From NCBI GenBank assembly GCA_944385365.1, contig CALWWW010000020.1, positions 1 to 41,917 of the forward strand: a stretch of DNA of 41,917 nt, given 5' to 3'. This DNA comes from an uncultured Oscillospiraceae bacterium (GTDB lineage: Bacteria > Bacillota > Clostridia > Oscillospirales > Oscillospiraceae). The translations under genes were made by a program, and so were the position numbers. Of the stretch, positions 27,534 to 41,917 are shown in pieces (position 1 is the first letter of the stretch; the number at the start of each line of letters is the position of its first letter). Under the pieces are notes generated by a model. The model had not been told where the DNA came from. It worked only from the letters and a program-made list of their open reading frames with translations, and ran no database searches.

Positions 27534-27603
27534 CGATAATTCCCGGCAATGGGCGAAGATCGTGGGAGATGCACCATCGCCCCCATCATACCGATTGGTT
27601 CCA

Positions 27604-28148
27604 CCCCGTAGGGCGGGGGCTTGCCCCCGCCGCCGGTACTGGATGCACTGCCGTCATGGAATGGAGGGCGGGACCTGCGTGTCCCGCCGCTGGTGGGCAT
27701 TTCTTCTTACCTTAAACGTAGGGGCCGGCATCCTTGACGGCCCCGGATGGGGTGCGGTGCGGGCACGTCAGGGATGCCGCGCCCTACGGTGGGGGGGTAC
27801 AATAAGGCCGCCGTCCGCCACCCGCGATGGGGTGGGGACAGCGGCCTTCGGCTTTGCCGGGGATTGCGCCATCTGCGGATGGCGCTTTGGGACGATGGGG
27901 GAGTTCGCGCCGTGCGCGGCGCGACCGGGGGCGCTGCCACCTGGACCCCGCGATTTGGGCTGCCCGCCGCCCGTTGGCAAGAGTGGTCGGCGAGGAATTT
28001 TTCGTCAGAGCAAGGTGCGGGTTCGCAGCCATACTGGATGTATGGCAAGAAACCGCACCGCAGCTATGGCGGAAAAGGCCCGGCGAGCACCGCAGACACA
28101 CGGGCGGTGGGTAGCCCTCACAAGAAAAAAATCGAGTAAAACTTTTAA
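27604..28148. repeat. intergenic hairpin mosaic, block E (interrupted)
   Basis: Downstream of the aminotransferase gene. Modules left to right: GGCGGGGGC-TT-GCCCCCGCC (about 27612-27631), GGCGGGAC...GTCCCGCC (about 27667-27688), GGGGCCG...CGGCCCC (about 27721-27743), a GGGATGCCGCGCCCTAC module, long hairpin 27804-27848, 20-nt hairpin 27866-27885, and a single 18-nt unit at 27906-27923. The terminal T-rich hairpin is split: GCGATTT at 27951-27956 and GAAAAAAATCGAG at 28124 onward are separated by a 167-bp insertion. The anchor ends at the aminotransferase stop. Confidence 0.85.
27957..28123. mobile_element. 167-bp MITE-like inverted-repeat element inside block E
   Basis: The sequence interrupts the T-rich hairpin that is intact in four other arms and differs by paired changes in the sixth. 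Its ends are inverted repeats, GGGCTGCCCGCCGCCCG on the left and CGGGCGGTGGGTAGCCC on the right (15 of 17 positions match). The arms keep pairing inward to a centre near 28034 (GGTGCGGGTTCGCAGCCATAC against GTATGGCAAGAAACCGCACC). The whole element can therefore fold as one long imperfect hairpin. There is no coding capacity, and three T of the target are missing rather than duplicated. A MITE or a structured RNA gene are both possible. Confidence 0.55.
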
Positions 28149-29315
28149 TTAGCCCATTTTCTCGCGGATTTTGGACAGGCGCTCCAGCGCCTCATTAAGG
28201 GTTTCGTCCACCTTGGCGAAGTGCAGCCGGACGATATGATTGACATTCTCCTTGAAGAAGGACGTACCGGGCACGGCGGCGACGCCCACCTTCCGGGCCA
28301 TCTCCTCGCAGAACTCCACGTCGGACTGGCCGGGCTTCATAAAGGGACCGATATCGGCCAGCACGAAGTAGGCACCCTGGGGGTCCGTATAGGGGATACC
28401 GATACGGTCCAGGCCCTCCGTAAACAGCTTCTTCATATGGGCGTAGTGGTCGCCGAACTCCTTATAATAGCTGTCGGGCATATCCAGACCCACAATGGCG
28501 GCCTCCATCAGGGGAGACGCCGCGCCCACGGCGTTGAAGTCGTGGTACTGCTTGATCTTGTCCATGATCTCCTTGGGGGCGATGGCGTAGCCCAGACGCC
28601 AGCCGGTGACGGAGTACGTCTTGGACAGGGAGGAGCAGGAAACGGTCCGCTCCCACATGCCGGGGATGGAGTTCATATAGGTGTGCTTGTGGCCCTCGTA
28701 GACGATATGCTCGTAGACCTCGTCCATGATGGCGTACACATCGTACTTGATGCACAGGTCCGCAATCTGCTTCAGCTCGGCTTCCGTAAACACCTTGCCG
28801 CTGGGATTGGAGGGGTTGCAGATCAGAATGGCCTTGGCGCCCTGCTTGAAAGCGTCCTCCAGCACATTGGCGTCGAAGTTGAATTCCGGCGGCGTCAGCG
28901 GCACAAACACCGGCTCACAGTCGGCAAAAATGGCCTGGGCCCGGTAGTTCTCAAAGTAGGGGGAGAACATAATCACCTTGTCGCCGGGGTTGGTCAGCGC
29001 AAACAGCGTGTCCACCATGGCTTCGGTGGAACCGATGGTTACCACCATTTCCGTGTCGGGGTCCAGGGTACGGCCCATGAACCGGCCGCACTTCCGAGCC
29101 AACGCAGCGCGGAAATTGGGCGCGCCCATGGTGATGGGGTACTGGTGGGGACCCTGATAGGCCACCTCCGCCAGACGGTCCAGCATGGCCTTGGGGGGAT
29201 CAAAGTCAGGAAAACCCTGGGCCAGGTTGATGGCGCCGCAATCCAGGGAGATGCGCGTCATGCGGCGGATGACGGAGTCGGTGAACAGATCGCACTTACG
29301 GCTGAGTTGTTGCAT
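28149..29315 (-). CDS. PLP-dependent class I aminotransferase, probably aromatic
   Basis: A 388-residue fold-type I aminotransferase. The PLP lysine is in SCSSLSKTYSVTGWRLGYA; other hallmarks are NLAQGFPDFDPP, ICNPSNPSGKVFTEAEL, IMDEVYEHIVY and VRLHFAK (substrate-carboxylate arginine). In its operon the logical reaction is transfer of an amino group to an arylpyruvate, giving phenylalanine, tyrosine or tryptophan, or the reverse. That is inference from the neighbouring indolepyruvate oxidoreductase and aryl-CoA ligase. Aspartate/alanine-type activity remains possible. It is the last gene of the T-box operon, 22 nt after the ACT gene, and abuts mosaic E. Confidence 0.9.
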   Translation of the reverse strand: MQQLSRKCDLFTDSVIRRMTRISLDCGAINLAQGFPDFDPPKAMLDRLAEVAYQGPHQYPITMGAPNFRAALARKCGRFMGRTLDPDTEMVVTIGSTEAMVDTLFALTNPGDKVIMFSPYFENYRAQAIFADCEPVFVPLTPPEFNFDANVLEDAFKQGAKAILICNPSNPSGKVFTEAELKQIADLCIKYDVYAIMDEVYEHIVYEGHKHTYMNSIPGMWERTVSCSSLSKTYSVTGWRLGYAIAPKEIMDKIKQYHDFNAVGAASPLMEAAIVGLDMPDSYYKEFGDHYAHMKKLFTEGLDRIGIPYTDPQGAYFVLADIGPFMKPGQSDVEFCEEMARKVGVAAVPGTSFFKENVNHIVRLHFAKVDETLNEALERLSKIREKMG

Positions 29316-29337
29316 GATACGGTACCTCGATTCTTAG

Positions 29338-29769
29338 TTAGTGGATGCCCAGTTCTTCACTGGTGGCAATGGGGATGTTGTGGGATTGCAGCAGGGCCGT
29401 GAACTTGGCCTCGTCGGAGACGCGGAACACCATATAGGCGTTGCCGTTCTGATTGGTGAACAGGGAATACATATATTCAATGTCCAGCTGGCCCTCGGCC
29501 AGCAGGGCCAGCACCTGGGCCAGACCGCCGGGGGCGTCGGGGACGGAGATCACCAGCACCGGCGTTTTGGACAGGATGAACCCCTGTTCCAGAAGAATAT
29601 CGGTGGCTTTCACCGTGTCATCCACAATGACGCGGAGAATGCCGTAATCGGTGGTCTCTGCAATGGACAAGGCCCGCAGGTCGATGTGATGCTCGGCCAG
29701 AATCTGGGTGATCTGGGCCAGCTGGCCCACACGGTTTTCCAGGAATACGGAGATCTGATGGATGGACAT
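29338..29769 (-). CDS. tandem ACT-domain amino-acid-binding protein
   Basis: A 143-residue protein made of two ACT domains, the first MSIHQISVFLENRVGQLAQI and the second from about residue 70 (VLVISVPDAPGGLAQVLALL), each with the glycine turn where amino acids bind. There is no catalytic domain. ACT proteins of this type commonly sit beside paaK in Clostridia. Here it could sense the final aromatic amino acid and adjust the ligase or oxidoreductase; this is inference. It lies 12 nt after paaK and 22 nt before the aminotransferase gene. Confidence 0.9.
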   Translation of the reverse strand: MSIHQISVFLENRVGQLAQITQILAEHHIDLRALSIAETTDYGILRVIVDDTVKATDILLEQGFILSKTPVLVISVPDAPGGLAQVLALLAEGQLDIEYMYSLFTNQNGNAYMVFRVSDEAKFTALLQSHNIPIATSEELGIH

Positions 29770-29781
29770 GGGACAACCTCC

Positions 29782-31080
29782 TTAAATCTTGCGCTTGTCG
29801 ATGATGCGGACGGCCTTGCCCTCGCTGCGGGCGATGGTCTTGGGGGCCACCAGCTTCACACGGGCGTAGATGCCCAGCATGGCCTTGAGGGCCGCCACCA
29901 GGGACTTCTCCATTTCGGTGATCTTGCCCAGGGAGTCGGAGAAGTTCTCCGGCGTCATTTCCACCAGCACGTCCAGCGTGTCGGAGTTGTTGATCCGGTC
30001 CACAATGATCTGGTAGTTGGCCTGGTAGCCCTGCTCAATGAGCACCGCCTCGATCTGAGACGGGAACACGTTGACGCCCTTGACAATGAGCATATCGTCG
30101 CTGCGGCCCATGGGCTTGCTCATCTTCACCAGCGTTCTGCCGCAGGAGCACTTTTCTCTTGTCAGCACGCAGATATCGCGGGTCCGGTAGCGCAGCAGCG
30201 GGAACGCTTCCTTGGTGATGGAGGTGAACACCAGCTCGCCCTTGCTGCCCTCCGGCAGCACTTCGCCGGTGTTGGGGTCGATGATCTCGGCAATGAAATG
30301 GTCCTCGTTGATGTGCATACCCGTCTGCTCGCTGCACTCAAAGGCCACGCCGGGGCCGGAGGTCTCCGTCAGACCGTAGATATCAAAGGCCTTGATGCCC
30401 AGCTGCTTCTCGATGTCCCGGCGCATTTCCTCGCTCCAGGCTTCCGCACCGAAAATACCGGCTTTCAGCTTGATCTGGTCCCGCAGGCCCCGCTCGTGGA
30501 TGGATTCCGCCAGATAGGCCGCATAGGAGGGGGTGCAGCAGAGAATCGTGGACTGCAAATCCACCATAAATTGCAGCTGCCGGTCCGTGTTGCCCGAGGA
30601 CATGGGCAGCGTCAGGCAGCCCACCTTGTGGCTGCCGCCATTGAGACCGGGGCCGCCGGTGAACAGACCGTAGCCGTAGCACACCTGGCACACATCCTCG
30701 TCGGTGCCGCCGGCGGCGGTGATGGCACGGGCACAGCAGTCCTCCCACAGGTCAATGTCGTGCTGGGTGTAGAAGGCAACCACCCGTTTGCCGGTGGTGC
30801 CGGAGGTGGACTGAATGCGGACGCAGTCCTTCAGCGGTTTGGCCAGCAGGCCGTAGGGATAGGCTTCCCGCAGATCGTCCTTGCTGAGAAACGGCAGCTT
30901 GTGGAGGTCGGCCACGCTCTGAATGTCGTCGGGGGTGACGCCTTTTTCCTCCATCTTCTTGCGGTAATAGGGGACGTTGTCCCACACGTGGCGCACCTGC
31001 TTCACCAGGCGCTCATTCTGCAACGCCAGGATGCTCTCCCGGCTGGCACATTCGATTTCGGGTTGATAGTATCGTTCCAT
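29782..31080 (-). CDS. paaK: phenylacetate-CoA ligase
   Basis: A 432-residue adenylate-forming ligase, the standard PaaK length, making phenylacetyl-CoA (or another arylacetyl-CoA) from the acid, ATP and CoA. Motifs: STSGTTGKRVVAFYTQ near residue 90, YGYGLFTGG, FDIYGLTETSGPGVAFEC, RTRDICVLTREKCSCGRTL, and the C-terminal SEGKAVRIIDKRKI with the catalytic lysine region. It lies 31 nt after iorB. In archaea and some anaerobes it can run as partner of indolepyruvate oxidoreductase in either direction, producing ATP in amino-acid fermentation or feeding reductive carboxylation. Confidence 0.93.
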   Translation of the reverse strand: MERYYQPEIECASRESILALQNERLVKQVRHVWDNVPYYRKKMEEKGVTPDDIQSVADLHKLPFLSKDDLREAYPYGLLAKPLKDCVRIQSTSGTTGKRVVAFYTQHDIDLWEDCCARAITAAGGTDEDVCQVCYGYGLFTGGPGLNGGSHKVGCLTLPMSSGNTDRQLQFMVDLQSTILCCTPSYAAYLAESIHERGLRDQIKLKAGIFGAEAWSEEMRRDIEKQLGIKAFDIYGLTETSGPGVAFECSEQTGMHINEDHFIAEIIDPNTGEVLPEGSKGELVFTSITKEAFPLLRYRTRDICVLTREKCSCGRTLVKMSKPMGRSDDMLIVKGVNVFPSQIEAVLIEQGYQANYQIIVDRINNSDTLDVLVEMTPENFSDSLGKITEMEKSLVAALKAMLGIYARVKLVAPKTIARSEGKAVRIIDKRKI

Positions 31081-31111
31081 GGGGCGATGGTTCCTTTCTC
31101 TTTCCGATGAA

Positions 31112-31684
31112 TCAGGCGTTGCGGCCCAGGGTGAACGCCTTTTTGTTCAGCTCCAGGAATTTCTCCGGGACGCTGTGCTCAATGGCGGTCATCCAGTCCT
31201 CCAAAGGCAGATCGAAGCACTTGGAAAGACGGCCCATGAGCACGATATTGACGGCCTTGGGGCTGCCTGCTTCCTCGGCCAGCTTCAATGCGTCGATGGC
31301 GTCCACCTTCAATCCCTTGGCTTCCATCTTGGCCACCAGATCTTCCGGATAGGACGCCGCGCCGGTGATGACGGGCATGGGGTTGATCTGCTGGGTGTTG
31401 GTGACGATGGTGCCGCCGGGTTTTAAGTATTCGGTCCAGCGGGCGGCTTCCAGCAGTTCAAAGGACACAATGTAGTCGGCTTCGCCCTTGTCGATGATGG
31501 GGGAGTAGACCTTGTCGCCGAAGCGGACGTAGGTAACCACGCTGCCGCCCCGCTGGCTCATGCCGTGGACCTCCGACACCTTGATGTCGTAGCCCTGAGT
31601 CAGCAGCAGACGGCCCAGGAGCTTGGAAGCCAGGAGACTGCCCTGACCGCCCACGCCGACGATCATAATGTTTTTCGTTTCCAT
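31112..31684 (-). CDS. iorB: indolepyruvate:ferredoxin oxidoreductase, beta subunit
   Basis: A 190-residue gamma-type domain of 2-oxoacid:ferredoxin oxidoreductases. It begins NIMIVGVGGQGSLLASKLLG, with EVHGMSQRGGSVVTYVRFG near residue 40 and DYIVSFELLEAARW, all hallmarks of IorB. It works with IorA in the reversible CoA-dependent oxidation of arylpyruvates to arylacetyl-CoA with ferredoxin. It lies 2 nt after iorA, so translation is coupled. Confidence 0.95.
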   Translation of the reverse strand: METKNIMIVGVGGQGSLLASKLLGRLLLTQGYDIKVSEVHGMSQRGGSVVTYVRFGDKVYSPIIDKGEADYIVSFELLEAARWTEYLKPGGTIVTNTQQINPMPVITGAASYPEDLVAKMEAKGLKVDAIDALKLAEEAGSPKAVNIVLMGRLSKCFDLPLEDWMTAIEHSVPEKFLELNKKAFTLGRNA

Positions 31685-31686
31685 GT

Positions 31687-33423
31687 TCAGTCCTCCTTCG
31701 GCAGCTGCAAGGCGTCAAATTTGCACAGCTGACGGCATACGCCGCAGCCGGTGCAGAGGGTGTTGTCGATTTTGGCCTTGCCGCCGATCATGCTGATGGC
31801 GGGACAGCCGATCTTCATGCACATGCCGCATTCCTTGCACTTGTCTTCCTCCACAAACAGGGGCTTGCCGTGCTTGACGGTCTTGAGCAATGCGCAGGGA
31901 CGGCGGGAGATGATGACGGAAGGTTCGTCGGCGGCCAGTTCCTCCTGGACCGCCTGATTGCACTCGGCCAGGTTATAGGGGTCCACCACCCGAACGCGGC
32001 GAATGCCGATGGCATGGCAGAGGGTTTCCAGATCAATCTTGGTGGCCGGGTCGCCCTTGAGATTGTAGCCGGTGGTGGGGTTCTGCTGGTGGCCGGTCAT
32101 GCCGGTGATGGAGTTGTCCAGGATGATGACCGTGGCGTTGGATTCATTGTACGCCACATTGACCAGACCCGTCATGCCGGAGTGCATAAAGGTGGAATCA
32201 CCGATAACGGCCACGGTGTTTTTGCTGTCGCCGCCGGACTTTAAGAAGCCGTGGAGACCGGAGATGGACGCGCCCATGCAGATGGTGGCGTCCATGGCGG
32301 CCAGGGGTGCCACCGCGCCCAGGGTGTAGCAGCCGATGTCGCCCATGACCGTCAGCTTGTTCTTTTTCAGCGTGTAGAACAGGCCCCGGTGGGGACATCC
32401 GGCGCACATGACGGGAGGACGGGGCGGGATGGGCTCATCCAGCGCCGTACCGGCGGGAACCGGCAGGCCCAGCTTTTCGGCCACGATATTCTGGCTCAGT
32501 TCGTCGATGCAGGAGAAATAATCCTTGCCGCTGAGGGCCAGACCCAGATTGCGGCAGTGCTCTTCAATGAAGCCGTCCAGCTCCTCCACCACCAGCAGAT
32601 GGTCCACAGTGGCGGCGAAGTCCCGAATTTTCTTCTCCGGCAGGGGCCAGACCATGCCCAGCTTGAGCACCGGGAACCGGTCGCCGCAGACTTCCTTCAC
32701 ATATTGATAGCTGGTGGAACCGGTGATGATGCCGATTTTGTGGTCGCTGCCGTCTTCCATCCGGTTGATCTCGGCGGTCTCGGCCCAGGCGATCAGGTCG
32801 GCGGTCCGCTGCTCCACCACCGGGTGGCGGCGCTTGGCGTTGCCGGGCATCATGATGTACTTGGGGCCGTTCTTCTCGTAGGGCTTGGCGGGGGGGTCGA
32901 CCCGGTCGGACGTCTCCACCACGCTCTGGGAGTGGGAAACACGGGTGCACATCTTCAAAAGAACCGGCGTGTCGAACCGCTCGGAAAGCTCATAACCCAG
33001 CTTGGCAAAGGCCAGGGCTTCGGCGGAGTCGGCAGGCTCCAGCATGGGAATTTTGGACGCTTTGGCGTAGTGGCGGGAATCCTGCTCGTTCTGGGAGCTG
33101 TGCATACCCGCGTCGTCGGCCACGACGATGACCATACCGGCGTTGACGCCGGTGTAGGAAATGGTAAACAGGGGGTCGGCGGCCACGTTCAGGCCCACAT
33201 GCTTCATGCCGCAGAAGCTGCGGTGACCGGCCAGGGCCGCGCCGAAGGCCGATTCCATGGCCACCTTTTCATTGGGGGCCCATTCGGCGTAAATCTCCGG
33301 GTACTTGGCGGCGGCCTCGGTGACCTCCGTGCTGGGGGTGCCGGGGTAGCTGGAGACGAAGCTGCATCCGGCCTCGTAGAGGCCGCGGGCAACGGCTTCG
33401 TTGCCCAGCATCAGCGTTTTCAT
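31687..33423 (-). CDS. iorA: indolepyruvate:ferredoxin oxidoreductase, alpha subunit
   Basis: A 578-residue catalytic subunit with thiamine diphosphate. Domain order: pyruvate-oxidoreductase N-terminal domain (SYPGTPSTEVTEAAAKY), middle transketolase-like region, TPP domain (MCAGCPHRGLFYTLKK, VMGDIGCYTLGAVAPL, VIGDSTFMHSGMTGL, LDNSITGMTGHQQNP) and a C-terminal two-cluster ferredoxin (CKECGMCMKIGCPAIS, CTGCGVCRQLCKFDAL). Length and order match the IorA family. It lies 2 nt after the symporter gene. Reduced ferredoxin could drive the reaction toward arylpyruvate synthesis. Confidence 0.96.
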   Translation of the reverse strand: MKTLMLGNEAVARGLYEAGCSFVSSYPGTPSTEVTEAAAKYPEIYAEWAPNEKVAMESAFGAALAGHRSFCGMKHVGLNVAADPLFTISYTGVNAGMVIVVADDAGMHSSQNEQDSRHYAKASKIPMLEPADSAEALAFAKLGYELSERFDTPVLLKMCTRVSHSQSVVETSDRVDPPAKPYEKNGPKYIMMPGNAKRRHPVVEQRTADLIAWAETAEINRMEDGSDHKIGIITGSTSYQYVKEVCGDRFPVLKLGMVWPLPEKKIRDFAATVDHLLVVEELDGFIEEHCRNLGLALSGKDYFSCIDELSQNIVAEKLGLPVPAGTALDEPIPPRPPVMCAGCPHRGLFYTLKKNKLTVMGDIGCYTLGAVAPLAAMDATICMGASISGLHGFLKSGGDSKNTVAVIGDSTFMHSGMTGLVNVAYNESNATVIILDNSITGMTGHQQNPTTGYNLKGDPATKIDLETLCHAIGIRRVRVVDPYNLAECNQAVQEELAADEPSVIISRRPCALLKTVKHGKPLFVEEDKCKECGMCMKIGCPAISMIGGKAKIDNTLCTGCGVCRQLCKFDALQLPKED

Positions 33424-33425
33424 GG

Positions 33426-34997
33426 TTACAGTTCCTCCTTTACAGTGTCGCGTGGGTTTCCGATGGAGTCCTTGGCGGTGACCACCACTTTTTGCTCATA
33501 GCAGGCGAAGACCTGCTCCACATGCTGCGGGAGCGGGGGCCGGGTCAGCAGACTGACCGCCGGGACAATGACAAGCCCCGCCAGCATACAGAACGCGCCG
33601 GCGTTGATGGGCGATTGGAGCAGCGTGGGAAAGGCGTTTCCGAAAAAGATATTGGCCAGCATGACCACTGTGGAAAAGGCAAAGCTGACGGCGCAGGCGG
33701 CCTTGGTGGTGCGCTTCCAGTACAAACCGTAGAGGAACGGGGCCAGAAACGCACCGGCCAGGGCGCCCCAGCTGACGCCCATGAGCTGGGCGATAAAGGT
33801 GACGCTGGAACGGTACTGGATGATCGCCAGCACCACGGAAATGGCGATAAATACCACAATCAGCAGGCGAATGAGGAAAATCTGCTGTTTTTCTCCCATG
33901 TCCTTTTTGAAGATGGGCTTGATAAAATCCAGCGTCAGCGTGGAGCTGGACGTGAGCACCAGGGAGGACAGGGTGGACATGGAGGCCGACAGCACCAGAA
34001 TCACCACCAGGGCGATCAAAATGGTGGGAAAACCCTCCAGCATGGTGGGAATGATGGAGTCATAGCCGTTCTGGGCCACCAGCTCCGGCGTGGAGAAAAG
34101 CCGTCCGAAGCCGCCCAGGAAGTAGCAGCCGCCGGCCACCACAAGGGCGAAGAGGGTGGAGATCATCATGCCTTTATCAATGGCCTTTTCACTCTGGATG
34201 GCGTAGAACTTCTGGACCATCTGGGGCAGTCCCCAGGTGCCCAGGGACGTCAGCAGCACCACGCCCAGGAGTCCCACCGGGTCCGGGCCGAAGAAGGAGG
34301 CGAAGACGCCGGGGGTGTCCGACGTGGCCGGGTCGCTGACCCGTGCCAGACCGTCCAGGGCCGCTTGGAAACCGCCCTGGCTGTTGAGGACGGCGGCCAC
34401 CACGGCGATAATGCCCACCAGCATGATGATGCCCTGGATAAAATCGTTGATGGCGGTGGCCATGTAGCCGCCGGCGATGACGTACACGCCGGTGAGCACG
34501 GCCATGACCACGACGCACACGGCGTAGTCGATGTGGAACGCCATGCCGAACAGACGGCTCAGACCGTTGTACAGGGAAGCCGTGTAGGGAATGAGAAACA
34601 GAAAGATGATGGCCGATGCCGCCAGTTTCAGCCCCCGGCTGTGGAACCGGTTGGCAAAGAACTGGGGCATGGTGGCGCTGTCCAGGTGCTGGGACATGAT
34701 GCGGGTTCGCCGTCCCAGAACGGCCCAGGCCAGCAGGGAACCCAACAGGGCGTTGCCGATACCGGCCCAGGTGGCGGCCACGCCGAATTTCCAGCCGAAC
34801 TGACCGGCGTAGCCCACGAAGACCACCGCAGAAAAGTAGCTGGTGCCGTAGGCAAAGGCGGTGAGCCAGGGGCCCACAGAGCGGCCGCCCAGGACAAAGC
34901 CGCTGACGTCGGTGGTGTGGCGGCGGCAGTACAGGCCAATGTAGATCATGACGGCGAAGAACACCGCCAGCATACCAAATTTAATGAATAAATCCAT
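33426..34997 (-). CDS. sodium:solute symporter family transporter
   Basis: A 523-residue polytopic membrane protein of the SSS family with about 13 hydrophobic segments (FGMLAVFFAVMIYIGLYCRR, LAASAIIFLFLIPYTASLYN, YAVCVVVMAVLTGVYVIAGG, LVVILVLSASMSTLSSLVL). The family motif region AYGTSYFSAVVFVGYAGQFGW is near residue 50. Known members import proline, pantothenate or monocarboxylates with sodium. Lying between an acyl-CoA synthetase and iorA, it probably imports the acid the operon activates, for example an arylacetate. That substrate is inference. Confidence 0.92.
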   Translation of the reverse strand: MDLFIKFGMLAVFFAVMIYIGLYCRRHTTDVSGFVLGGRSVGPWLTAFAYGTSYFSAVVFVGYAGQFGWKFGVAATWAGIGNALLGSLLAWAVLGRRTRIMSQHLDSATMPQFFANRFHSRGLKLAASAIIFLFLIPYTASLYNGLSRLFGMAFHIDYAVCVVVMAVLTGVYVIAGGYMATAINDFIQGIIMLVGIIAVVAAVLNSQGGFQAALDGLARVSDPATSDTPGVFASFFGPDPVGLLGVVLLTSLGTWGLPQMVQKFYAIQSEKAIDKGMMISTLFALVVAGGCYFLGGFGRLFSTPELVAQNGYDSIIPTMLEGFPTILIALVVILVLSASMSTLSSLVLTSSSTLTLDFIKPIFKKDMGEKQQIFLIRLLIVVFIAISVVLAIIQYRSSVTFIAQLMGVSWGALAGAFLAPFLYGLYWKRTTKAACAVSFAFSTVVMLANIFFGNAFPTLLQSPINAGAFCMLAGLVIVPAVSLLTRPPLPQHVEQVFACYEQKVVVTAKDSIGNPRDTVKEEL

Positions 34998-35019
34998 AGG
35001 GAAGTACCTCCAGGAGCGA

Positions 35020-36657
35020 TTAGTGGGTTGTTTGGGCTTCTACGAGACGACCGCGGCAATATCGCTCCCGGAGCACCGGCTTTTCGATCTTGCCGGTGGG
35101 ATTGCGGGGAACCTTGTCGAAAATGATTTTTCTCGGGCGCTTGTACCGGGGCAGCTCGGCGCAGAAAGCGTTGATCTCCTCCTCGGTGCAGGTCTGGCCC
35201 TCGGCCACCTGGATGATGGCGGCGGCGATTTCGCCAAGACGGGGGTCCGGCAGGCCGATGACGGCCACATCGGAGATTTTTTCGTTGCGGCGCAGGAAGT
35301 CTTCGATCTGTACCGGGTACAGGTTTTCGCCGCCGGAGATGATGACGTCTTTTTTCCGGTCCACCAGATAGTAGAAGCCGTCCTCGTCTTTGCGGGCCAT
35401 GTCGCCGGTCCACAGCCAGCCGTCGTGGAGGACCTCCGCCGTGGCTTCCGGGTTTTTGTAGTAGCAGACCATGACGCCGTCGCCGCGGAGGGCCAGCTCG
35501 CCCACCTCGCCGTCGGGCACGTCGTTGCCCTGCTCGTCTACGATGCGGGCTTCCCAGCCGAAGCCGGGCTTGCCGATGGCGCCCACCTTGTCGATGTTCT
35601 CCACGCCCAGATGGACCGCGCCGGGGCCGATGGATTCCGAAAGGCCGTAGTTGGTGTCGTACTGGTGGTGGGGGAACAGCTTCATCCACCGGTGAATCAT
35701 GCTGGGCGGCACCGGCTGCGCGCCGATGTGCATGAGCCGCCACTGGTCCAGCATGTAGTGGCCCAGGTCAATGCGGCCCGACTCGATGGCTTCCAGCAGG
35801 TCCTGACACCAGGGCACCAGAAGCCAGACGATGGTGCATTTTTCCTCGGTGACGGCCCGGAGAATCCACTCAGGCTTGACGCCCCGCAGCAAAACGGCCT
35901 TGCTGCCGGAGTAGAGGGAACCGAACCAGTGCATTTTCGCGCCGGTGTGGTACAGGGGCGGAATGCAGAGGAACACGTCGTCCCGTGTCTGGCCGTGGTG
36001 GGCCTGTTCCGTGCGGCAGGCGGCCACCAATGCCCGGTGTTTATGTAAAATGGCCTTGGGAAAACCCGTGGTGCCGGAGGAAAAGTAGATGGCCGCGTCG
36101 TCGGTCTCGTCCAGGGCCACCGGGGGCGCGCTGGAGGAACAGAACGTCACCAGACGGCAGCAGTCCTCGGCGTACTGGGGCACATCCCGGCCCACATAGA
36201 ACAGCAGCTTGACGCCGGGGATACTGTCGATGATGGGGTCCATGCGGCTGACAAATTCGGGACCGAAGACCAGCACCGACACGTCGGCCAGATCGAGACA
36301 GTACTGGATTTCATCGCTGGAATAGCGGAAATTCATGGGAACGGCGATGCAGCCCGCTTTGAGAATACCGAAGTACAGGGGCAGCCATTCCAGGCAGTTC
36401 ATCAGCAGAATGCCGACTTTTGTACCTTTCTGCAATCCGCGGCTCAGCAGCAGATTGGCGAAGCGGTTGGCCTTGCGGTCGAAGTCCCGCCAGGTCATTT
36501 CGCGGCGGTAGGGGGCGTCGGGGCGGGCGCTTTCAATCAGGCTGAAATCCCGCCAGGTGACGGCCTTGTCCCGTTCTTCCGAGGGGTTGATCTCCACCAG
36601 AGAGACCTCGGAGCCGTAGAGCCGCGCGTTGCGCTCCAAAAATTCCGTAATGACCAT
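35020..36657 (-). CDS. AMP-binding acyl-CoA synthetase, probably aryl-acid specific
   Basis: A 545-residue adenylate-forming ligase. Motifs: IYFSSGTTGFPKAILHKH (AMP loop), DTNYGLSESIGPG, LWTGDMARKDEDGFYYLVDR, ISGGENLYPVQIEDFL, and the catalytic lysine at about residue 523 in RNPTGKIEKP. The start at 36657 was chosen because TAAGGAGAC lies 10 nt upstream and because the ATG at 36750 falls inside the riboswitch. An odd feature is a short N-terminal duplication, TWRDF occurring twice about 27 residues apart. It is the first gene of the T-box operon and the second CoA ligase in it; the two may serve different acids. Confidence 0.9.
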   Translation of the reverse strand: MVITEFLERNARLYGSEVSLVEINPSEERDKAVTWRDFSLIESARPDAPYRREMTWRDFDRKANRFANLLLSRGLQKGTKVGILLMNCLEWLPLYFGILKAGCIAVPMNFRYSSDEIQYCLDLADVSVLVFGPEFVSRMDPIIDSIPGVKLLFYVGRDVPQYAEDCCRLVTFCSSSAPPVALDETDDAAIYFSSGTTGFPKAILHKHRALVAACRTEQAHHGQTRDDVFLCIPPLYHTGAKMHWFGSLYSGSKAVLLRGVKPEWILRAVTEEKCTIVWLLVPWCQDLLEAIESGRIDLGHYMLDQWRLMHIGAQPVPPSMIHRWMKLFPHHQYDTNYGLSESIGPGAVHLGVENIDKVGAIGKPGFGWEARIVDEQGNDVPDGEVGELALRGDGVMVCYYKNPEATAEVLHDGWLWTGDMARKDEDGFYYLVDRKKDVIISGGENLYPVQIEDFLRRNEKISDVAVIGLPDPRLGEIAAAIIQVAEGQTCTEEEINAFCAELPRYKRPRKIIFDKVPRNPTGKIEKPVLRERYCRGRLVEAQTTH

Positions 36658-36697
36658 AAGTGTTCGTCTCCTTACCAGTGTTGTTCCGGCAGAGAAC

Positions 36698-36727
36698 AAA
36701 AAACGCCCTCTGCCGCAAGAGCAGAGG
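36698..36727 (-). terminator. T-box regulatory terminator
   Basis: On the minus strand CCTCTGC (36727-36721), 7-nt loop, GCAGAGG (36713-36707), GCG, then six T (36703-36698). It lies directly downstream of the T-box sequence and 40 nt before the acyl-CoA synthetase start. The T-box antiterminator would compete with it. Confidence 0.85.
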
Positions 36728-36960
36728 ACGAGAAAATCCCGTGGTACCACCTCAATTTACCGTCGATGACGGCCTCATGGAGCCCCGCAGGCCCCTGCGC
36801 TGTAACGGGCGACCCGTCGGCGTCTACTGAAAAACCTGTTCGACGCCGCCGCTCCGAAGGGTATTCCCCCAACGGCTCCCGACTGCCTCGCACCATACGG
36901 CAGCTCTCTGGACGGTCCTCCGGAGGGGTACTTTGCTTCCTCATCGCGTTTTGCTATTAG
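36698..36960 (-). promoter_or_regulatory. T-box riboswitch, apparent tyrosine (UAC) specifier
   Basis: A transcriptional T-box leader that senses uncharged tRNA. On the minus strand: Stem I base GCGATGAGGAAG with AGTA loop (about 36946-36931), distal AGAGAG and GGTGCGAG elements, specifier loop GGAA-TAC-CC followed by CTTCGGAGC (specifier 36863-36861), Stem III CCGTC-ATC-GACGG (36772-36760), T-box AGGTGGTACCACG (about 36752-36740) and the terminator. The antiterminator bulge reads TGGT, whose last base would pair with discriminator A, as in bacterial tRNA-Tyr or tRNA-Phe, not G as in tRNA-Trp. The T-box itself is clear; the UAC reading depends on my fold of the specifier loop. Confidence 0.88.
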
Positions 36961-36994
36961 ATTGACTTTATCACATTTACCTGCTAAAGTCAAT
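36961..36994 (-). promoter_or_regulatory. promoter of the T-box operon inside a perfect dyad
   Basis: On the minus strand TTGACT (36993-36988), 17 bp, TAAAGT (36970-36965). The same span is a perfect 10-bp inverted repeat, ATTGACTTTA (36961-36970) and TAAAGTCAAT (36985-36994), with a 14-bp centre. It covers both hexamers, as an operator would. The -35 contains the TGA stop codon of the thioesterase gene at 36990-36992. Confidence 0.65.
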
Positions 36995-37418
36995 GGCCTG
37001 GAAAGAAATTCTCGGTCTTTTTTTCGGTGATAAAGCCGTTGACGGTCATGGAAGCCACATGGGTGCCCACATCGTCGGTGAAATCGACGACATAGTGGCA
37101 GGTGGTGCGGCCGGAGCGGACACAGGAGGCCGTGGCCGTCAGAATTTTGCCACGGGCCGGGGCAAAATAGGTGATATCATGCTGGAGGGAGATGGTGACC
37201 CGCTCGGAAAAACTGTTGGCGGCCACGGCAAAGGCCAGATCCCCCAATGTAAAGATGGCGCCGCCCTGGGGGGTTCCGGCGGCGTTGCAGTGGCGGGGCT
37301 CCAAAATCAGCTGACAGACGGACCGGCCGGGGGCGGCGTCCACGATGGTCACGCCGGTGACCTCGGAGGCGAACCGGTCGGCCTTGAAAAATTCCTGGAT
37401 TTCGGCAAGAGTGGGCAT
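36990..37418 (-). CDS. PaaI-family hotdog acyl-CoA thioesterase
   Basis: A 142-residue hotdog-fold thioesterase. The family core is CNAAGTPQGGAIFTLGDLAFAVAANS (about residues 47-72) with the active-site acid in LGDLAF, followed by ISLQHDITYFAPARGKILTATA. PaaI enzymes hydrolyse phenylacetyl-CoA and related aryl-CoAs, rescuing CoA. The start at 37418 follows AAAGGAG 8 nt upstream; longer frames run into repeat DNA. It lies just upstream of, and parallel to, the arylacetate operon, and its stop codon is inside that operon's -35. It may read through into the T-box leader. The substrate is inferred from context. Confidence 0.85.
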   Translation of the reverse strand: MPTLAEIQEFFKADRFASEVTGVTIVDAAPGRSVCQLILEPRHCNAAGTPQGGAIFTLGDLAFAVAANSFSERVTISLQHDITYFAPARGKILTATASCVRSGRTTCHYVVDFTDDVGTHVASMTVNGFITEKKTENFFPGH

Positions 37419-37536
37419 GGAATTGGCTCCTTTCGGTGGGGACGGTATGGATGGAATGACAAGGTATTGCAGGGACATGCTCCCGCCGTGTTCGGTACGG
37501 ATTCGCCCCGGTGCTCCGGTGAATGACGGTTTGCAC

Positions 37537-37858
37537 CGCCGGGGGCACACACAGGTGCCCCCCTACAAACACGAACCAACTGCCCTACTTCTCGTAGGGC
37601 GGGACCTATGTGTCCCGCCGCTGGTACGTACTGACGGGGAAATAAGGATGGCCCCCGGACACCGCCCCACAAGGGCGGGCACGGGGGCCATGGCCTTGCG
37701 GCCGGGGGTTCCGCCATCTGCGGATGGCGGTTTGGGACGATGGGAGATTTCGCGCCGTGCGCGGCGCGGGAGTTTCGCCCGCTGCGGCGGGCGACCGGGG
37801 CTTTGCCCCTGGACCCCACAATTTTTTTGTAAAAAAATTGACTAAAAACTTTTAACTT
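37537..37858. repeat. intergenic hairpin mosaic, block F
   Basis: Downstream of asnS. GGGGGCAC-ACACAG-GTGCCCCC (about 37541-37562), GGCGGGAC...GTCCCGCC (about 37597-37618), long hairpin 37648-37691 (ATGGCCCCCG...CGGGGGCCAT), 20-nt hairpin CCGCCATC-TGCG-GATGGCGG (37711-37730), two 18-nt units at 37751 and 37776, GGGGC-TTT-GCCCC, then a T-rich hairpin CAATTTTTTTG/TAAAAAAATTG. Relative to other blocks the outer pair of the 20-nt hairpin and the second pair of the T-rich hairpin are changed on both sides. Positions 37419-37536 hold no recognisable feature. Confidence 0.85.
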
Positions 37859-41463: not shown

Positions 41464-41917
41464 CCGCCGCCGGTACGCACCATCGACGATTACTGCACCG
41501 ATGGGTTCCACCGTGTAGGGCGGGGGCTTGCCCCCGCCGCTGGTACCGGGTACGATTGCGCCGCCATGCACGGAAAAACGGTACCGGGTACTGCCGGGAC
41601 GATGTGGGCATCGTCCCCTACATTCCTGAACGGACTGCCGATATGGAATGTAGGGCGGGACCTGTGTGTCCCGCCGCCGGTACGCGCTATCGATACCCGG
41701 TGTACCGATGGGTTCCACCGTGTAGGGCGGGGGCTTGCCCCCGCCGCCGTGCCGCACCACGCCCGGTGCGGTGCTTTTTAATCGACCGCGCCAGCGGTCA
41801 CCACACTTCTTCACTTTTCACTATTCTATCTTACTTTGACAAAAGGCCGCCGTCCGCCACCCCGTGATGGGGTGGGGACGGCGGCCTTACGGCTTCGCCG
41901 TGGGGATTGCGCCATCT
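41464..41917. repeat. intergenic hairpin mosaic, block G (cut by window end)
   Basis: No gene is supported. Two copies of GGCGGGGGC-TT-GCCCCCGCC (about 41518-41541 and 41724-41746), GGGACGATG-TGGG-CATCGTCCC (about 41598-41619), GGCGGGAC...GTCCCGCC (about 41653-41674), long hairpin 41843-41888 and the first half of the 20-nt hairpin at 41909. About 75 bp around 41690-41765 nearly match 14072-14147 in block C. Positions 41319-41463 hold only the unassigned upstream region of the exporter-like gene. Confidence 0.8.

Follow-up and report, generated by a model that had tools for sequence, protein, structure and literature searches.

Why should a gene set that is usually read as a fermentation pathway for aromatic amino acids stand behind a T-box, a riboswitch that answers to amino-acid shortage? 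The question is raised by contig CALWWW010000020.1 (assembly GCA_944385365.1) of an uncultured Oscillospiraceae bacterium, from which a stretch of 41,917 nucleotides (nt), called the window below, was analysed. The initial annotation, made from the sequence alone, had described seven genes behind a T-box leader, in the order acyl-CoA synthetase (ACS), sodium:solute symporter (SSS), iorA and iorB for indolepyruvate:ferredoxin oxidoreductase (IOR), paaK, a gene for an ACT protein and an aminotransferase gene. It had proposed that they form a starvation-induced salvage route. The arrangement was borne out: open reading frames and family searches agree on the seven genes and their order, and the T-box was recovered as an Rfam match. 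The genes are packed on the minus strand, from 36657 to 28149, with intergenic gaps of 22, 2, 2, 31, 12 and 22 nt in that order, and IOR, CoA ligase and aminotransferase are all encoded in the one operon. We consider that this is probably a tyrosine T-box operon for the salvage synthesis of aromatic amino acids.

The leader names the amino acid. The T-box is the sole Rfam match in the window at the gathering threshold. Its specifier, UAC for tyrosine, was obtained by both of the automatic rules used here, the stem rule on the window and the fixed-offset rule on the identical copy at locus L002. The T-box of tyrS in the same genome carries its specifier in the context CGGGAATACCTCCCGGAGC, and GGGAATACC is common to the operon and tyrS contexts. 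Read from the coordinates, an intrinsic terminator overlaps the 3' end of the T-box, where it would compete with the antiterminator. When stem I and the antiterminator were folded by themselves, their stability did not exceed that of shuffled sequences (z 0.03 and 0.59, respectively); it is the covariance match that supports these two elements. The leader is preceded by a promoter-like site whose −35 sequence, TTGACT, was also seen by eye upstream of the T-boxes of four related loci (L020, L025, L026 and L034). The end point that the initial annotation had given to the operon, 36994, coincides with this −35 box.

T-boxes respond to a shortage of their amino acid, and a degradative operon would therefore be wired wrongly. 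AMP-forming ligases normally favour the CoA ester. Regulation by a T-box and ligases of AMP-forming families thus favour synthesis, and it is from these two features that we infer the biosynthetic direction. In the proposed mechanism, uncharged tRNA-Tyr would accumulate and pair with the UAC specifier, the antiterminator would form and the seven genes would be expressed. Aryl acids from neighbouring microbes, namely 4-hydroxyphenylacetate, phenylacetate and possibly indoleacetate, would enter the cell, perhaps through the SSS symporter. ACS and the PaaK-type ligase would spend ATP on making the CoA esters, IorAB would use reduced ferredoxin for their reductive carboxylation to aryl-pyruvates, and the aminotransferase would convert these to tyrosine and phenylalanine. 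The ACT pair may act as a product sensor.

Features of the operon and its leader, with positions in the window
Feature	Position	Strand	Evidence
Sigma-70-type promoter-like site, TTGACT-17-TAAAGT	36965..36993	-	Consensus scan; 0.2 such sites expected in shuffles
T-box leader RF00230	36721..36953	-	127.4 bits, gathering 93, E 4.3e-28, model 1-219 of 219
Specifier codon UAC (Tyr)	36861..36863	-	Context GGGGAATACCCTTCGGAGC
Intrinsic terminator overlapping the T-box 3' end	36704..36730	-	11 bp stem and T run; -19 kcal/mol, z -5.1
ACS: AMP-forming acyl-CoA synthetase, 545 amino acids, proposed aryl-acid CoA ligase	35020..36657	-	Pfam AMP-binding 2.9e-73
SSS: sodium:solute symporter, proposed acid importer	33426..34997	-	PF00474 1.1e-54
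iorA: indolepyruvate:ferredoxin oxidoreductase alpha	31687..33423	-	TIGR03336 693.5 bits vs cut-off 650.9
iorB: indolepyruvate:ferredoxin oxidoreductase beta	31112..31684	-	NF005325 280.5 bits vs cut-off 230
PaaK-type AMP-forming CoA ligase	29782..31080	-	Solved phenylacetate-CoA ligase 2y4o, E 2.4e-122
ACT domain pair protein (ACT_8)	29338..29769	-	PF19571 7.3e-26; solved relative 2f06, a conserved hypothetical protein
Class I/II aminotransferase	28149..29315	-	PF00155 1.2e-62

ACS, the symporter, the ACT pair and the aminotransferase are assigned at the Pfam level only. ACS and the aminotransferase scored under the cut-off of every NCBIfam family shown (25 shown of 108 and 25 of 76, respectively), and the symporter under all 10 NCBIfam cut-offs listed. 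IorB missed another IorB model, TIGR03334 (192.7 vs 205.8). We name the second ligase PaaK-type only, because it missed the equivalog cut-off though its nearest solved structures are phenylacetate-CoA ligases. For the symporter the best NCBIfam match, under its cut-off, is a proline symporter model, and amino-acid transporter genes are among the usual T-box targets given in PMC3766115. Both points agree with an operon that supplies tyrosine and phenylalanine through import of amino acids or aryl-pyruvates, the ior and ligase genes clearing or recycling intermediates in either direction. We regard this as very unlikely, since some T-boxes stand before ACS or iorA at loci whose available sequence shows no SSS gene, namely L021, L022 and L034 and, within flanks of 1.5 kb, L173 and L187. 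The presence of two different CoA ligases would also suit aryl-CoA esters that end up in a conjugate, a secondary metabolite or the like, with the amino-acid level only gating the pathway. To this idea we give hardly any credence: the family searches assigned none of the seven proteins to an acyltransferase family, and amino acids are what the aminotransferase and the cognate specifiers indicate.

Related operons are common. A scan of named genomes detected at least 592 loci, and the analysis continued with the 80 best; the closest among the matches listed is Candidatus Avoscillospira avistercoris (97% in IorA). Within the best 80, ACS, iorAB, paaK and the ACT gene adjoin one another repeatedly in varying order, and the aminotransferase gene is attached in seven, some loci ending early. 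Flavonifractor sp. An100 (L023), a cultured isolate, has iorAB-paaK-ACT together with a divergent ACS and carries no T-box there. A T-box lies ahead of ACS or iorA in 16 of the 80; all 16 belong to the 75 loci whose first gene has 350 nt or more of sequence ahead of it. Fifteen T-boxes, one in each of 15 of these loci, exceed the Rfam gathering score; two others, that of L088 and the first of the pair at L020, score lower and rest on our own profile. Two protein searches of 99 genomes, counting our own, located IorA in 60 genomes and ACS in 40, and for each protein 30 loci were fetched with 1.5 kb flanks. Among the 30 fetched ACS loci (window included), 10 have a Tyr T-box immediately before ACS; in five of these 10, from fragmented assemblies (G009, G023, G029, G044 and G059), the iorA match lies on a different contig.

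Whether the specifier codons of homologues are aromatic had been set beforehand as a test that could refute the salvage proposal. Read by hand with the stem as anchor, the 27 distinct T-boxes ahead of ACS or iorA, from the named loci and the protein-search loci together, comprise 14 for Tyr and 13 for Phe. The stem rule gave Tyr or Phe in 25 of the 27 and the fixed-offset rule in 19, its eight misses being seven one-base shifts and one anchor slip (L195). The proposal thus came through this test. L020 carries both kinds, a Tyr T-box before ACS-SSS and a Phe T-box before iorA. The pattern of T-boxes suggests that ACS serves tyrosine, from 4-hydroxyphenylacetate, and the PaaK-type ligase phenylalanine, from phenylacetate. 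We make this division only tentatively, because seven ACS-first operons bear Phe T-boxes (L019, L022, L025, L026, L027, L042 and L052).

The same genome, G000, holds a branched-chain counterpart (C18:127-6077; L133), in which an Ile T-box is accompanied by an MbcS-like ligase, a P-loop protein, VorB and beta and gamma subunits. This T-box scores 65.6 bits, below gathering. The ligase (757 amino acids) is called MbcS-like only because it missed the equivalog cut-off of its top family, MbcS (NF047394; 443.9 bits vs 850). VorB passes NF005507 (542.1 vs 399), and the VOR beta and gamma subunits are under the cut-offs listed. Relatives of the ligase were detected in 59 of the 99 genomes; the 30 best loci were fetched, and in 27 a T-box stands before the ligase (L162 being only a partial match). 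By hand, 31 distinct T-boxes at MbcS-like ligases in relatives comprise 24 for Ile and seven for Val; the automatic reading gave Ile or Val in 21 by the stem rule and in 20 by the fixed-offset rule. Tandem MbcS-like ligases with one Ile and one Val T-box occur in six loci (L140, L145, L146, L148, L150 and L154). At E values up to 0.01, Rfam reported 19 T-boxes in the 13 MbcS-like loci submitted, six of the 19 above gathering. In six of the 30 loci VorB comes after the ligase inside the flank of 1.5 kb; several flanks or contigs end too early to show it. The aromatic and branched-chain operons share a design of T-box, CoA ligase and ketoacid:ferredoxin oxidoreductase. Starvation-induced reductive carboxylation is more likely because this Ile/Val-controlled MbcS-like/VOR operon runs parallel, and the Ile/Val case argues that the match of amino acid to operon is design and not accident. 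The aromatic operon would then be one half of a wider design, and the Ile T-box operon the other.

Controls for the codon readings came mostly from the same genome, which has 14 T-boxes at E values up to 0.001, five of them above the gathering score. Besides the two ligase operons, the codons as read by hand match the downstream genes: tyrS UAC, valS GUC, ileS AUC, ilvB CUG, homoserine sulfhydrylase AUG, asnB AAC, trpB-like UGG, metN AUG, pheS UUC, thrS ACC, cysE/cysS UGC and alaS GCC. The genes after the T-boxes of this genome, controls included, were named by eye from translations. All 11 control T-boxes, 10 of this genome plus that of valS in L057, were assigned their cognate amino acid by the fixed-offset rule, with ilvB counted as right for Ile, Leu or Val. 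A first automatic rule with loose stems misread many T-boxes, controls too, and was replaced by the stricter stem rule and the fixed-offset rule, both of which were devised after the sequences had been inspected. Hand readings overruled the stem rule in two of the 27 aromatic and 10 of the 31 branched-chain cases. Matches of hidden Markov models without GGTGG, AGTGG or GGTGA near the 3' end were dropped, for example the reverse-strand shadows of L138 and L139; the same filter removed the truncated L162, which is Ile by eye. Duplicates were merged (four aromatic, three branched-chain), and the T-boxes of other genes (L057, L066, L078, L190, the second of L173 and the other ones of our own genome) were kept out of both counts.

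A number of results weigh against the salvage interpretation. Only 16 of the 75 operon loci with sufficient upstream sequence have a T-box, and Rfam found none in the seven T-box-negative loci submitted. The codon readings are not uniform: the fixed-offset rule gives Tyr or Phe in just 19 of the 27 aromatic cases, the stem rule was right at eight of 11 controls, its readings for valS (L003), the trpB-like gene and alaS being shifted by one base, and the specifier of L056, L075, L088 and L104 is ambiguous, Phe by the stem rule and Ser by the fixed-offset rule. Both ligases are short of the NCBIfam cut-offs shown, the PaaK-type one failing the PaaK equivalog TIGR02155 at 503.6 bits vs 646.3. Chorismate synthase and prephenate dehydratase are encoded on contig C31 of the same genome and prephenate dehydrogenase on C3 (aroB, aroA and aroE were recognised by eye only), and with these enzymes encoded no gap forces the use of a salvage route. 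From the literature, PMC13285125 cites a Bacteroides thetaiotaomicron IOR that has a part in the conversion of phenylalanine to phenylacetate, and it places many IOR/VOR genes near genes for phosphotransacylase/kinase or ADP-forming ligases, a fermentative setting. That setting was not seen in the present operon.

An alternative is a mainly fermentative gene set, in which IorAB oxidises aryl-pyruvates to aryl-acetyl-CoA, the ligases run in reverse for ATP and the T-box is incidental or vestigial. IOR is classically fermentative, phenylacetate formation in B. thetaiotaomicron depends on it according to the work cited in PMC13285125, this genome can make phenylalanine and tyrosine de novo, and 59 of the 75 related operons examined are without a T-box. 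We nevertheless hold a mainly oxidative role to be unlikely. Tyr and Phe T-boxes pass the Rfam gathering score in the window, as they do in all but one of the 16 T-box loci, the ligases come from AMP-forming families that normally favour the CoA ester, and the parallel operon with its Ile/Val match would require the same accident.

With the counts above, T-box control cannot be regarded as general among these operons. Nor does the operon fill a gap in biosynthesis here, since the genome keeps its chorismate and prephenate genes. For the same reason salvage would not be the sole source of phenylalanine and tyrosine; it would be a second route that backs up the chorismate/prephenate pathway in this genome. 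None of the 14 own-genome T-boxes lies on C31, and the sole one on C3, at 100563, stands before cysE/cysS. The check for the de novo pathway was made in G000 and in the genomes behind 50 of the 80 loci, all 16 T-box loci among them. Among the 17 T-box operon genomes, 12 have aroC, PDH_N and PDT above cut-off and two (L056 and L075) lack only aroC. In the remaining three (L026, L042 and L088) none is above cut-off; their completeness is not given, and dependence on the operon is not claimed. The starvation-induced salvage put forward in the initial annotation thus stands in part: the Tyr T-box, the Tyr and Phe specifiers of homologues and the Ile/Val parallel speak for it, and it has to be narrowed to a supplementary route that is under T-box control in a minority of related loci.

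Other observations concern the neighbourhood and the relatives of the operon. A 4HBT-type thioesterase gene lies directly upstream (window 36990-37550, minus strand), its stop codon inside the −35 box of the operon, and such a gene also stands beside ACS in L168, L169 and L170; the upstream thioesterase could act on aryl-CoA esters. The window contains dispersed GC-rich repeats of 53 nt (27590-27642, 41497-41549 and 41704-41756) and 68 nt (27856-27923 and 37701-37768), and the copies near 27.6, 27.9 and 37.7 kb sit between the genes described here. In L056, L075, L088 and L104, a YerC/YecD gene of the TrpR family lies between the T-box and iorA (tblastn; family search for L075), which suggests a second aromatic-sensing control. 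At L066:3437-3678 and L078:14342-14604, a Trp T-box (hand reading) and a trpB-like gene come right after paaK-ACT (family search for L066), and our own genome has a Trp T-box before a TrpB-like gene (G000:C1:222242-222473). These pairs may serve indole salvage. Close IorA relatives were also detected in records named for other phyla, L061 (4.2 Mb, Chloroflexi), L040 (Victivallales) and L081 (Synergistaceae), of which L061 carries a Tyr T-box; they would reflect horizontal transfer or mislabelled assemblies.

Taken more widely, we think it somewhat better than an even chance that acid salvage in gut bacteria of the Oscillospirales type is governed by a general T-box regulon. In it, the CoA ligases that supply a ketoacid:ferredoxin oxidoreductase would bear T-boxes of their own that name the amino acid rebuilt, with Tyr ahead of ACS, Phe ahead of iorA and of the PaaK-type ligase, and Ile and Val ahead of tandem MbcS-like copies. 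The specifiers would predict acyl-CoA synthetase substrates, and the fermentation acids of neighbours would be recycled when the given amino acid is short. An operon that returns aryl acids to protein when amino acids are short would act as a sink, whereas the system is generally portrayed as a source. As the T-box codon names the product, it would help to assign substrates to acyl-CoA synthetases and a running direction to reversible oxidoreductases, neither of which follows from sequence by itself. Gut anaerobes have long been known to use branched-chain acids, and the Ile/Val operon would provide the genes for this and the switch that controls them.

The idea of a biosynthetic IOR is already in print. 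PMC13285125 proposes this role for a Bacteroides IOR beside an AMP-forming arylacetate-CoA ligase, reports a ligase assay and argues that an AMP-forming ligase next to IOR indicates biosynthesis. Priority for the T-box-controlled version is not proven. Literature searches returned nothing that pairs T-box with indolepyruvate, or T-box with phenylacetate and phenylalanine; with T-box, acyl-CoA synthetase and isoleucine, the only bacterial T-box case returned was PMC2700814, in the matching text at leuA only. Terms for ferredoxin and CoA ligase were not found as T-box targets in searches of the main texts of PMC2494555, PMC7778990, PMC7583486 and PMC3766115 (supplements outside the search), the matches to 'CoA' shown for PMC7583486 being to coaxial stacking.

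Compared with known systems, the leader is like other T-box riboswitches (RF00230) in its full-length match, its specifier and its terminator. The genes it precedes are unlike the usual targets, described in PMC3766115 as synthetases, amino acid biosynthesis and transporters, in that they encode CoA ligases and ketoacid:ferredoxin oxidoreductases. The operon resembles the Bacteroides system of PMC13285125, for which biosynthesis is proposed, in having IOR beside an AMP-forming ligase; it differs in that the word riboswitch is absent from that paper and no second ACS-type ligase appears in its Discussion. According to PMC4162585, Porat et al. (2004) reported that aryl acids feed aromatic amino acids in Methanococcus maripaludis. 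That organism is an archaeon, and a T-box is not mentioned in the account given there. What it has in common with the proposal made here is that aryl acids supply a second pathway in addition to the de novo one and that IOR is the enzyme of this pathway. A further parallel is with rumen anaerobes, in which phenylalanine is made from phenylacetate according to the title of Allison (1965), cited in PMC7356843: there, as proposed here, gut anaerobes build an aryl acetate into an amino acid.

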